A stretch of DNA of 64,000 nt from Mesorhizobium sp. (GTDB lineage: Bacteria; Pseudomonadota; Alphaproteobacteria; Rhizobiales; Rhizobiaceae), in assembly GCA_004017535.1 (NCBI GenBank), contig SAJS01000011.1:150774-214773 (forward strand), in the 5' to 3' direction. The position numbers were made by a program, and so were the translations under genes. Below are positions 36,700-40,050 of this stretch, piece after piece (the stretch's first letter is position 1; each line of letters begins with the position of its first letter). The notes beneath the pieces are model-generated. The model did no database searches. It saw only the letters and a program-made list of their open reading frames with translations, and was not told the origin of the DNA.

Positions 36700-36995
36700 G
36701 CTCGACAGACCCCTGAGCCGCGCCATGTTTCACCGGAGCCGCTGACCCGCTTCGACACAGCCCGATTGTGCCAAACAGGGACCGGACGCGACAGCCCTCG
36801 TGATCATGGTAAGCACTTCATGAAGCTTGCTTCGCCACCGCATTTTCGTTTACTTCCCGTTCACCTTCAACTTTGCCGAAAGGCAATAAAAACAATGCAT
36901 TGACTGCCTGTTGAGCATCTTTCGGCGGTTTCTGGCCGAAATCCTGCACTGCCTTTGCCGAGCGGCGCAGCGCCGCAGAAGTGGAGGCGGAAGGG

Positions 36996-38357
36996 ATGCG
37001 GCAGTTCAGAGATGTCGTTCGTGGGGTGGACGGCTTTACCCGGAATCGCGAAGGCAATTTCGCGGTTCTGTTCGGAGCTGCCGTATCTGTCCTCGCGCTG
37101 GGGGTGGGATTCGCGGTCAATATCTCGCAGCTCTACAATGCGAGGTCGAGCTTGCAGAGCGTCGTCGACGCCGCCGTCACCTCGACGGCCCGCGATCTCA
37201 CCCTTGGCATCATCACGGAAGCCGACGCCAGCAAAACGGTGCAGGCCTTCCTCGACGCCAACAGCGCCGCCGGCATCCTGCAGGCCAACCAGATCGTGCT
37301 GGACAAGCTTACGGTCGACAGGACGGCCAACACCGTGCAGGCGGACGCGCATGCCGATGTAGGCCTCTTTTTTCCGCTGTTCAGCACCGACAGCATGCGC
37401 CGCGTGACTGCTTCGACCACCGCGCTCTACTCGGACAAGACCGTGGAGGTGGCGATGATGTTGGACGTCACCGGTTCGATGGCGGGCCAGAAGATCAAGG
37501 ATCTGCGGACGGCGGCGAGCAACGCGGTCAATTCCTTCCTCACCGGCCAGAGCGCCACCAATCCGCGCGTGCGGGTGGCGATCGTGCCTTATGCCGATTC
37601 GGTCAATGTCGGCTCCCTTGCCGCAAGCACCGTCTTTGTCGAGACCAAGCCCAGCGAGCGCAAGCAGGCGCCCGCCAATGACGATCCGAAATATGTCTCG
37701 GCGTCGACACGGCCGGACAATTGCGCGACCGAGCGCAAGGGCACCTATCAGTATTCGAATGCCGGCCCGGATGTCAGCATGGTCAACCGCGACCTCTATT
37801 TGTCGGCCTTTGCCCGGCAGACCAACACAGCGGCCTGTCCGGTTGCCACGGTTCAGCCGTTGACCGCGAATGCGTCGACCCTGAATAAGGTCATCAAGGA
37901 CCTCGTCGCTTCCGGCGGCACCGCCGGCCATATCGGCGTGCAATGGGCCTGGTATATGCTTTCGGAAAACTGGGGCGGCGTGATGGCTGCCTCGCAACGG
38001 CCGGCCAAGATGGATCCGAAGAAGGTGGCGAAATACGCGATCCTGATGACCGATGGCGAATTCAACCTGTCCTATTTCGACGCAAGCGGCCCGGATCAGG
38101 TCTATAACGATGCCGGCAAGGTGCAGACGCGAACTGCGGCGACAACGCTCTGCGCGGCCATGCGCGACCAAGGCATCGAGATATTCACCATCGGCTTTGC
38201 CCTCACCGAGAAGAACGCCAAATCGACGTTGCAGTCCTGCGCGAGCCCCGACACGGGCAATAGCAAGCATTTCTACCAGGCCGCCAACGGCAGCGAACTC
38301 GACCAGGCCTTCCAGGATATCGTGCGCAACATCGACAGGCTGACGGTGACCAGGTAG
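36996..38357 (+). CDS. TadG-like pilus-assembly/von Willebrand factor A protein
   Basis: A 453-residue protein. It starts with a TadG/TadE-like segment (REGNFAVLFGAAVSVLALGV, about residues 20-39: one membrane helix after a conserved Glu-Gly-Asn), a structure typical of secreted pseudopilin-like proteins. A von Willebrand A domain follows, with a MIDAS-type DVTGSM (Asp157) and, later, ILMTDGEFN. Several cysteines in the insert suggest an extracytoplasmic location. GGAGG precedes ATG 36996 by 8 nt. No other tad/cpa gene adjoins it, so it is an orphan member. A strong hairpin follows the stop. Confidence 0.85.
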   Translation: MRQFRDVVRGVDGFTRNREGNFAVLFGAAVSVLALGVGFAVNISQLYNARSSLQSVVDAAVTSTARDLTLGIITEADASKTVQAFLDANSAAGILQANQIVLDKLTVDRTANTVQADAHADVGLFFPLFSTDSMRRVTASTTALYSDKTVEVAMMLDVTGSMAGQKIKDLRTAASNAVNSFLTGQSATNPRVRVAIVPYADSVNVGSLAASTVFVETKPSERKQAPANDDPKYVSASTRPDNCATERKGTYQYSNAGPDVSMVNRDLYLSAFARQTNTAACPVATVQPLTANASTLNKVIKDLVASGGTAGHIGVQWAWYMLSENWGGVMAASQRPAKMDPKKVAKYAILMTDGEFNLSYFDASGPDQVYNDAGKVQTRTAATTLCAAMRDQGIEIFTIGFALTEKNAKSTLQSCASPDTGNSKHFYQAANGSELDQAFQDIVRNIDRLTVTR

Positions 38358-38391: not shown

Positions 38392-38431
38392 GGAAAAGGC
38401 CGCCGCTTCTTCAAGAAGCCGGCGGCCTTCC
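38392..38431. terminator. Strong hairpin terminator between TadG-like gene and the tiny minus-strand gene
   Basis: GGCCGCCGCTTCTT and AAGAAGCCGGCGGCC form a long stem with a single bulge. AAAA precedes the hairpin on the plus strand, so the minus-strand RNA ends with a TTTT run. It can stop transcription of the minus-strand unit at 38570 and probably of the convergent gene. Confidence 0.8.
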
Positions 38432-38498
38432 GTGTTTCCGTCCATGACGCGGCTCCTGGCGGCAACCCCTTCGGGCTACCTGCCGCGCTTCTCGCGCC

Positions 38499-38570
38499 TT
38501 AACGGGAAGACTGCTTCCCGGAAGTGCAATCCGCAGAGCTCACGTTATGGAAAACGAAATCACTCGACAT
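38499..38570 (-). CDS. Tiny ORF (23 codons) with near-perfect Shine-Dalgarno
   Basis: Not recognised. On the minus strand ATG 38570 is preceded by AAAGGAGGTGATCC (38573-38586), which complements the 3' tail of 16S rRNA over 14 nt, with 7 nt between GGAGG and ATG. The peptide starts MSSDFVFHNVSSADC and ends GKQSSR; it has no membrane helix. Downstream there is a perfect 7-bp hairpin over the stop codon (38503-38520), further stem-loops to about 38460, and the terminator at 38392-38431. Upstream lies a perfect 7-bp hairpin (38600-38617). The unit looks like a stand-alone small mRNA or a dual-function RNA of about 200 nt. It is divergent from the cyclopropane synthase gene. Confidence 0.6.
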   Translation of the reverse strand: MSSDFVFHNVSSADCTSGKQSSR

Positions 38571-38572
38571 CG

Positions 38573-38586
38573 GATCACCTCCTTTC
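38573..38586 (-). promoter_or_regulatory. Extended ribosome binding site of the tiny ORF
   Basis: On the minus strand it reads AAAGGAGGTGATCC, complementary to the GGATCACCTCCTTT end of 16S rRNA. No other intergenic site in this window comes close to this length of match. Confidence 0.75.
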
Positions 38587-38781
38587 AGTTCGTTGAACAC
38601 ACCCCAATGATGGGGTGCATCGCAGCAAAAGACAAGATGACGTCACGGAATGGTCATGCCTCGAGCCGGGAAACGTGCTCTTGCGGTGCTTTTGCGCAAC
38701 AGATCGGGATTGCGGTCTACAGGCCGGTGGAAGACAGTGCGGCTTTGGGAACGGGGCGGATCGACATAGCGGGAGGTGGGA

Positions 38782-40050
38782 ATGGACGCCGCCGACAGGG
38801 CCGCGCGGATCGTACGCAAGGTCGTCGAAACGCTGAAGCCGGGTTTTGCGGTCAGGCTGTGGACCGGCGAGCGGATCGGACCCGCCAGCGGCCCGGTGCT
38901 TGCCATCAACGATCAGGACATGGTCTGGCAACTGGTTCGCCGGCCGACCTTCTCGACGCTGGTGGAGATGTGGATCTCCAAGACAGTCGATATCGAAGAT
39001 GGCACGCTGTTCGATTTCTATGCTCTGCCTTCGCAAGGCAAGCTCAAGACGAAGCTCAAATCCCTGCCTAAGCTGGCGATCCTGCGCGATCTGCCAATGG
39101 TGTTGTTGTCGCGCAAGCAGATGACGGCGCGCAGCGATCTTTCCGGCCGCAAGCCTTTCGTCAGCGGGTCGAGCAAGGAGGCGATCCAGCACCATTACGA
39201 CATTTCGAATGATTTCTACCGGCTCTTCCTCGACGAGCGCATGGTCTACAGCTGCGGCTATTTCCACGATTTCGCCAATGGCATCGACCAGGCGCAGGTC
39301 GACAAGCTCGACCATATCTGCCGCAAGCTCAGGCTGAAGCCCGGCGAAAGGCTGCTCGACATCGGCTGCGGCTGGGGTGCGATGCTCATCCATGCGGCGA
39401 AGAACTACGGCGTCGTCGGACATGGCGTCTCGCTGTCGCAAGCCCAGACGGAACTTGCCCGCGAGCGCATCCGGGCCGAGGGGCTGGAGGACCGCATCAC
39501 CATCGAGATCAAATCCTATGCCGAGCTCTCCGGCACCTTCGACAAGATCTCGTCGATCGGCATGTTCGAGCATTTGGGTCTTGCCAACCACGCGGCCTAC
39601 TTCTCGGCCGTCCATCGTTTGCTGAAGCCTGGCGGCATCTATCTGCACCACGCCATCACTAGGCGCAGCAAGGGCGACATCAGGAAGACGCTGCGCAAGG
39701 GGGCGGAATACAAGGCGCTGATCAAATACATCTTCCCCGGCGGCGAGCTCGACACGATCGGCATGACGCTCGGCAACCTCGAGGCGCACGGCTTCCTCGC
39801 CTATGACGTGGAGAACCTGCGCGAGCATTATGCGCGAACCTGCCGGCTGTGGGCGGAGCGCCTCAATGCGCGCTTCGGCGAGGCGGTCGCCGAGGTCGGC
39901 GAGCCCAAGGCGCGGCTGTGGCTGCTCTATCTGACAGGTTGCTCGATCACCTTCGAGCGCGGCTCGGCGCAGATTTTCCAGACCGTCGCCACGAGGCGCG
40001 CCCGCGGCCCGAGCGGCCTGCCGCCGACACGGGCGGATTTGTACCGGTAG
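38782..40050 (+). CDS. cfa: Cyclopropane-fatty-acyl-phospholipid synthase
   Basis: A 422-residue Cfa-family methyltransferase that transfers a methylene group from SAM to unsaturated acyl chains in membrane phospholipids. The N-terminal lipid-binding part is followed by AIQHHYDISNDFYRLFLDE (a family hallmark), the SAM motif LLDIGCGWGAMLIHAAK, and VGHGVSLSQAQTELARERI. The catalytic region includes SIGMFEHLG and the C-terminal HYARTCRLWAERL. The start ATG 38782 has GGGAGG at 5 nt. It is divergent from the tiny ORF and convergent with the MOSC gene. Confidence 0.93.
   Translation: MDAADRAARIVRKVVETLKPGFAVRLWTGERIGPASGPVLAINDQDMVWQLVRRPTFSTLVEMWISKTVDIEDGTLFDFYALPSQGKLKTKLKSLPKLAILRDLPMVLLSRKQMTARSDLSGRKPFVSGSSKEAIQHHYDISNDFYRLFLDERMVYSCGYFHDFANGIDQAQVDKLDHICRKLRLKPGERLLDIGCGWGAMLIHAAKNYGVVGHGVSLSQAQTELARERIRAEGLEDRITIEIKSYAELSGTFDKISSIGMFEHLGLANHAAYFSAVHRLLKPGGIYLHHAITRRSKGDIRKTLRKGAEYKALIKYIFPGGELDTIGMTLGNLEAHGFLAYDVENLREHYARTCRLWAERLNARFGEAVAEVGEPKARLWLLYLTGCSITFERGSAQIFQTVATRRARGPSGLPPTRADLYR

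Follow-up and report, generated by a model that had tools for sequence, protein, structure and literature searches.

In some RNA thermometers, riboswitches and attenuators, the Shine-Dalgarno (SD) motif is hidden by an anti-SD sequence of the same RNA. The CC2171 RNA (Rfam family RF01867) reportedly goes back to Landt et al. 2008. One covarying pair was added to CC2171 in Rfam 15, according to the available part of PMC11701678, and a 215-nt transcript of M. huakuii, MH_s33, was filed as CC2171 in the accessible text of PMC5596092. One available passage of PMC4117421 states that two earlier Caulobacter ncRNAs, which are not named there, are translated. In S. meliloti, the accessible sections of PMC10117765 describe SEP1, which has 23 amino acids and a pI of 4.18 and is conserved in Rhizobiaceae. 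SEP1 had the top translation efficiency of 54 high-confidence non-annotated candidates, and a tagged fusion was visible by western blot.

Here, a minus-strand locus of Mesorhizobium sp. was analyzed within a stretch of 64,000 nucleotides, called the window throughout. The locus is flanked by two ORFs of the plus strand, 38776-40050 and 36981-38357, which the initial annotation had described as a putative cfa and a putative TadG-like gene, respectively. It had also described a 23-codon minus-strand ORF behind a 14-nt complement of the 16S rRNA tail, two 7-bp hairpins, and a terminator. All of these were found in the sequence, the terminator as a GC-rich stem followed by a T run (Table 1). Generic scans of the locus for sigma-70 promoters and for terminators yielded no call, and therefore the two elements rest on conservation and on the stem with its T run. 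With up to two mismatches, AAAGGAGGTGATCCNATG (SD plus ATG) matched once in the 64-kb window and in 0 of 100 shuffles. The folding energy of a 211-nt model RNA (38602-38392) was -98.7 kcal/mol, which corresponds to a z score of -4.67 against 200 shuffles.

Table 1. Features of the locus and the basis of their assignment
Feature	Positions	Strand	Basis or remark
Whole proposed RNA, about 210 nt	38394..38600	minus	conserved block, RF01867 match, fold z score; end set by the terminator
Likely promoter: CTTGTC (38636-38631), 18 nt, CATCAT (38612-38607)	38607..38636	minus	deduced from conservation
Upstream hairpin of the initial annotation, judged not to be part of the RNA	38600..38617	minus	broken in relatives, overlaps CATCAT
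Conserved 5' box GTGTTCAACGAACTG	38586..38600	minus	TTCAAC...G kept in many relatives
SD AAAGGAGGTGATCC, full 14-nt complement of the 16S tail	38572..38585	minus	sequence
ORF of 23 codons plus stop, ATG to TAA, MSSDFVFHNVSSADCTSGKQSSR	38499..38570	minus	length kept in 187 deduplicated relatives
P1, 5' strand GTGATTTCGTTT	38552..38563	minus	codons 3-7
P1, 3' strand GGACGGAAACAC	38432..38443	minus	directly before the terminator
16S-tail imitation CGGATTGCACTTCC inside the ORF; in P2, bases 1-8 of it pair with GTGATCCG (38578-38571)	38520..38533	minus	
P3 hairpin, reaching the stop codon	38503..38520	minus	5 of 7 pairs with double changes, 23 sequences
3' hairpin region, GCGCGGC with GCCGCGT, inner hairpin 38480-38461	38446..38488	minus	95.7-100% of cells paired, 23 sequences
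Terminator stem-loop and T run	38394..38429	minus	same kind of element in 177 of 187 relatives

The RNA presumably starts near 38600. The CTTGTC and CATCAT-like boxes are kept in relatives. The six bases between CATCAT and GTGTTCAAC vary, and the GTGTTCAAC box is kept, which fits a stretch that separates a -10 box from a start site. The upstream hairpin, which the initial annotation had counted as a component of the transcript, was rejected. It is broken in close relatives (such as L002, L015, and L016) and lies over the likely -10 box, so that it probably overlaps the promoter.

A lack of conservation in close relatives, which the initial annotation had named as an argument against the element, was not seen: blastn detected it in 23 of 24 genomes of the same genus, and the pairs of the hairpin at the stop codon were kept via double changes. 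The motif AAAGGAGGTGATCCNATGTC was present in 62 of 151 genomes of the family and 36 of 199 genomes of the order, with one copy in each. From the 89 family genomes without AAAGGAGGTGATCCNATGTC, 65 were searched with a longer pattern and up to three mismatches, and 33 matched. At the class level, with up to one mismatch, 73 of 289 genomes matched, and one of them (G377) has two sites. Controls with patterns read backward gave 0 matches among the results listed. A scan of named genomes yielded at least 117 matching stretches; among the 80 titles listed, 75 were alphaproteobacterial by our own reading, 3 were Proteobacteria, and 2 were Gemmatimonadetes. Chance is argued against by the single match in the window, its absence from the shuffles, the roughly one copy per matching genome, and the empty controls. 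As judged from the pattern searches, the family reaches the Rhizobiales, Rhodobacterales, Sphingomonadales, and Rhodospirillales. Many genomes of the class had no match, and therefore the family is widespread, but not universal, at this sensitivity.

Several loci deviated from the common picture or stood in an unusual context. The two Gemmatimonadetes matches among the 80 listed (L127, L158) are MAGs, and the start region of L127 is family-like (TTGTCTAGTGAC); misbinning, transfer, or chance are possible sources of both. In L236 and L289, an SD box is followed by TTGTCTAAC and by a 14-codon ORF with GGGAGCTTCC or GGGGAGCTTCC and a complementary downstream segment, and this type is possibly a separate variant of the family. 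The Bradyrhizobium members L167 and L177 have an almost invariant 14-codon ORF (VSYLKRCHLAGIAR and kin) that contains CACCTC as well as GGGATCGCC, and the distance to a tRNA gene is about 150-220 bases. At an Inquilinus locus (L183:7753-7804), the whalefall-1 RNA (RF01762) passed its gathering score. A plasmid search with the RNA of the window and a phage search with L264 gave no match.

The neighborhood of the element was not uniform. Across 75 loci, the neighboring ORFs, called by a crude script, differed in length and direction, and in 14 of these loci, read by eye rather than by family search, no shared neighbor protein was recognized. Therefore, no cis target is apparent, and a cis-acting leader was rejected on the basis of these differing neighbors. 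This agrees with the proposal of the initial annotation that the locus encodes an independent small mRNA or dual-function RNA without a cis target, as do the 5' box and the terminator of its own.

Comparison with RF01867 yielded an alignment over the full model (1-159 of 159) at 38594-38397, with 29.5 bits and an E value of 9.1e-05. The gathering score of the family is 75 bits, and no match in the window reached it; the RNA is thus related to CC2171 but lies outside the curated family. At a lax threshold, 14 of 14 other loci also matched, 11 with 36.1-44.5 bits and 3 with 26.3-29.1 bits. At the class level, RF01867 matched 26 of 142 genomes, the Mesorhizobium genome itself included, and 5 of them were above the cutoff. 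Among 14 named control genomes, Caulobacter vibrioides was the only one with a match. Gathering-level matches were obtained for 3 of 18 loci (Methylobacterium, Bosea, and Brevundimonas), and none of the Rhodobacterales, Sphingomonadales, Bradyrhizobium, or Azospirillum loci among those 18 reached this level. A second match in the same Mesorhizobium genome (L118, C6:110597-110789) has no SD box and was treated as false; its beginning overlaps with the last part of an open frame that, by eye, encodes a putative L,D-transpeptidase. The strands of the genes flanking MH_s33, as given in the available part of the source, do not fit the layout of the window.

The records used for comparison were loci in which the SD was preceded by no fewer than 60-80 bases and followed by about 200-300. 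Three sets were compiled, one of 101 records thinned to 75, one of 212, and one of 269 thinned by shared 6-mers to 187. The P1 test was based on the 177 of 187 sequences in which a terminator was found, and the comparison of open and closed SD motifs on 175. Groups such as Sphingo-like and Rhodobacter-like were set by motifs of the start region, not by taxonomy; for example, L081, a locus from the order Rhizobiales, was grouped as Sphingo-like. The alignments included 15 of 15 (A1), 16 of 17 (A2, L161 left out), 23 of 25 (A3, L149 and L194 left out), and 21 of 27 sequences (A4, L276 not among the records and L100, L101, L153, L179, and L191 left out). All permutation tests treat the sequences without control for relatedness.

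A start and a stop codon of the ORF were found in all 187 deduplicated sequences. The mean length was 23.6 codons (standard deviation 5.4, 5-95% 18-31, range 14-59; 171 of 187 at 14-26), a count in which probable non-members with long ORFs, e.g., L198 and L270 with 58-59 codons, were kept. The standard deviations in the other frames were 21.4 and 19.4. Third positions accounted for a fraction of 0.26 of the substitutions over 451 pairs of 23-codon ORFs. Among the other classes, those with 15 or more differing pairs gave 0.20-0.31, two small ones with 6 and 4 pairs gave 0.28 and 0.40, and one class of 20 pairs had no differences. In different genomes, the conserved 3' nucleotides GGAGCAGCC encode EQP, RSS, or GAA. 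Peptides of different orders had almost nothing in common past the first residues; within clades, the motifs MSS or MSN, QPS, and MSHGS recurred. In one clade of 15 members, 4 peptides had 23 amino acids, and the pI values ranged from 4.05 to 8.5; the peptide of the window has a pI of 6.5. The initial annotation had not recognized this peptide, which is explained by the near-absence of conservation at the protein level. Translation seems to be kept, and the peptide mostly not.

The members of the family share a common anatomy, which consists of the 5' box, the SD, one spacer base, RTGTC, the helices P1, P2, and P3, and the terminator. P1 joins the bases after ATGTC to the segment before the terminator, and its letters differ by clade (ATTGTC/GACAAT, ATGAG/CTCAT, GTGAG/CTCAC, CATGGTT/GACCATG). 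With its own partner, the P1 score was 13.03, compared with 10.28 for swapped partners (standard deviation 0.19, maximum 10.79, 300 permutations with kinship ignored; 177 of 187 sequences), and 147 of the 177 sequences could form at least 5 bp. For the P1 version of the window, 86.8% of the cells in relatives were paired, and some were unpaired.

In P2, the latter half of the SD, together with the spacer base, is paired with a segment of the ORF that resembles the 16S tail. Examples are GTGATCCG/CGGATTGC in the window, GGTGATCCG/CGGATCGCC in L022, GATCCCG/CGGGATC in L100, and GATCCTG/CAGGATC in L101. The P2 score over 75 sequences was 16.18, compared with 15.11 (standard deviation 0.16) for swapped partners, and 0 of 500 swaps reached it, kinship being ignored. 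The spacer base is the position that is not fixed by the 16S rRNA. It formed a Watson-Crick pair with its partner in 61 of 138 sequences, versus 37 after permutation (standard deviation 4.5, maximum 56, 5000 permutations, kinship again ignored); in the remaining 49 of 187 sequences, the motif needed for this count was absent. As P2 crosses P1, the two would have to form a pseudoknot or alternative folds.

A matched change was found in one Rhizobiaceae clade, in which the SD reads AAGGAAGG. The stop codon is followed by CCTTCC in 10 of 11 members and by TCTTCC in L258. After thinning, CCTTCC was present in 8 of 8 sequences, and in 8 of 8 it paired better with their own SD than with the other version. 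L263 and L240, which are related and have an unchanged SD, carry CCTCC at the same place. CCTTCC also occurred in 12 of the 179 other thinned sequences.

Double changes within clades were also quantified. The 23 Mesorhizobium-type sequences contained 19 double-change cells versus 5.9 after shuffling, distributed over P3 (13), the 3' hairpin (3), P1 (2), and P2 (1). The 21 Caulobacter-type sequences contained 18 versus 4.1, located in the terminator (15), P2 (2), and P1 (1). RNAalifold, applied to the Caulobacter-type alignment A4, predicted the terminator and a 3-bp local hairpin, and neither P1 nor P2. With so few double changes in P1 and P2 within clades, the case for these two helices rests on the comparison between clades, in which relatedness is uncontrolled.

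Next to the complementarity of selected segments, the pairing of the SD with its own downstream RNA was scored for 187 sequences. The SD bound this RNA better than shuffled RNA, with a mean z score of -1.34, compared with -0.08 for the reversed SD. The signal was greatest in the Rhodobacter-like group (z -2.05, 12 sequences), and it was absent from the ATGTCTCATG class, a Sphingo-like motif group of mostly Sphingomonadales (z -0.15, 22 sequences). In Rhodobacter-like loci (L120, L131, L150, and others), a further SD-like stretch, GGAGAGAGGTG, lies within the ORF and could rival the true SD for the 3' CAYCTCC segment.

Model RNAs of the window were folded with tools that ignore pseudoknots. At lengths of 85-150 nt, the SD was paired to the imitation of the 16S tail with a probability of 0.75-0.78, which fell to 0.02 or less from 160 nt onward; in the model, this unmasking at about 160 nt precedes synthesis of the 3' strand of P1. 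In the full-length RNA, the pair probability of P2 was near 0, and that of P1 varied with the assumed start, with means of 0.11 (38602), 0.21-0.23 (38600-38601), and about 0.7 (38599 or later). P1 was absent from the full-length fold for the likeliest starts. These shifts show that the start site matters and that P1 is not secured by energy. Among 175 sequences, 51 had an SD that was more open (by 0.2) in the full RNA than in its truncated form, and 13 showed the opposite; 10 of these 13 were among the 12 Rhodobacter-like sequences. The fold models are hints of mutually exclusive folds, not proof of a switch.

Taken together, we propose, with a probability of about one half, that the locus encodes a widespread, probably translated, self-masking small RNA, in which the fold and the act of translation, more than the peptide, would be under selection. 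The parts of the RNA, their distribution, the conservation of ORF length without that of its sequence, and the complementarity with its matched changes between clades can be read directly from the genomes. An independent RNA of about 210 nt, both structured and translated, would be made from the locus. The strongest possible SD would stand at its start, and an imitation of the 16S tail in the same RNA would mask it by forming P2. The long-range helix P1 would connect the beginning of the ORF with the segment that precedes the terminator. The ORF would be held open within narrow lengths because the ribosome has to load and travel over the folds, and the peptide would largely be a by-product. 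We infer that these folds exist in vivo, that they are switched by ribosomes, and that the output acts on other RNAs or on the stability of the RNA itself. A real switch of this kind would amount to a conserved readout of ribosome availability. Rather doubtful is the further idea of a ribosome-gated riboregulator that contains both the SD and the anti-SD half, so that free 30S subunits decide whether the imitation is held in cis or freed for the SD motifs of other mRNAs. If it were true, the RNA would report the ribosome supply of the cell.

The same observations bear on the unlikely alternative that the locus is a plain small-protein gene, in which the function resides in the peptide, as may be the case for SEP1, and the structures only tune its expression. 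The ORF that is open from start to stop in 187 of 187 deduplicated sequences is in agreement with it, and so are the recurrence of peptide ends within clades and the translation of the likely homologue SEP1, known from the tagged fusion in the available text of PMC10117765. However, third positions show no excess of substitutions, the reading frame of the conserved 3' nucleotides differs between genomes, little is common between orders beyond the first residues, and within one clade of 15 the pI runs from 4.05 to 8.5. The findings are also a caution that what is conserved in some 'small proteins' may be an RNA with a passenger peptide.

Two further alternatives place the function in the purine tract. 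The RNA could be an SD-like sponge that captures the anti-SD loops (CCUCC type) of other sRNAs. Small RNAs with CCUCCUCCC loops occur in Rhizobiales (PMC3927594), and RNA sponges are known in Caulobacter, where CrfA was reported to sponge SisA-D (PMC12559287), both according to the parts of these sources that were available. Yet a sponge would leave unexplained the conserved RTGTC start, the narrow ORF length, and the 14-nt register identical to the 16S tail, which makes it quite improbable. The RNA could also be an untranslated or incidentally translated decoy that acts through a 15-nt complement by titrating 30S subunits or the 3' end of the 16S rRNA. The perfect 14-nt complementarity to the 16S tail and the retention of AAAGGAGG in 166 of 187 deduplicated sequences would be expected of a decoy, but not the one copy per genome, the kept ORF length, or the clade in which the changed SD weakens the 16S pairing yet keeps the internal pairing; we regard it as very improbable. 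The initial annotation had offered titration of 30S subunits or an antisense role in place of translation as its own alternative, and this was only partly right: the tract is suited to pairing elsewhere, but it can also pair within its own RNA. A chance resemblance without function has a negligible probability, given the 0 of 100 shuffles, the recurrence over many genera, and the zero matches of the controls.

A literature search with the letters of the element gave no match, and no description of this architecture was found in the literature searched, in which most subscription papers were beyond reach. SmelC671, SmelC289, and SmelC023 were considered as candidate S. meliloti sRNA names. The S. 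meliloti Ak57 copy (L297:2501-2679) is unannotated, lies at 1061115-1061293 of CP090106.1, and encodes MSNEISDLVMDMGEVKESRQPSA, with 23 amino acids and a pI of 4.18. CP090106.1 is a 3.7-Mb record labelled pSymB, and its size fits the chromosome (3.66 Mb in the available text of PMC10117765).

Both values of this copy, its length and its pI, equal the published figures for SEP1. Given the spread of pI values within the clade and the 4 of 15 members with 23 amino acids, the double match is telling, but no proof. Through this match, the S. meliloti copy is likely to be translated, and the ORF of the family may be the best-translated unannotated sORF of S. meliloti. In the available text, SEP1 was described as a small protein and not as a member of this RNA family. 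Also from S. meliloti, rnTrpL/peTrpL is similar in that a short ORF lies on a small RNA and both RNA and peptide have roles; the difference is that rnTrpL, a trp attenuator, is leaderless and lies upstream of trpE (PMC10117765, accessible sections), whereas the family RNA has a maximal SD and lacks a conserved gene downstream.

With CC2171, the RNA shares the SD box and RTGTC, a P1 that lies within the Rfam consensus structure, the terminator, and the full-length alignment. Rfam labels CC2171 an sRNA, whereas those parts of its description that were consulted mention neither the ORF nor an internal imitation of the 16S tail. Judged by sequence, an RNA that carries the label of a Caulobacter sRNA appears to be a class-wide, translated RNA whose start site is self-masking. 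As in such thermometers, riboswitches, and attenuators, the SD is predicted to be masked by an anti-SD of the same RNA. In contrast to them, mask and SD are located on a stand-alone RNA, and the mask copies the 16S tail, spacer included.
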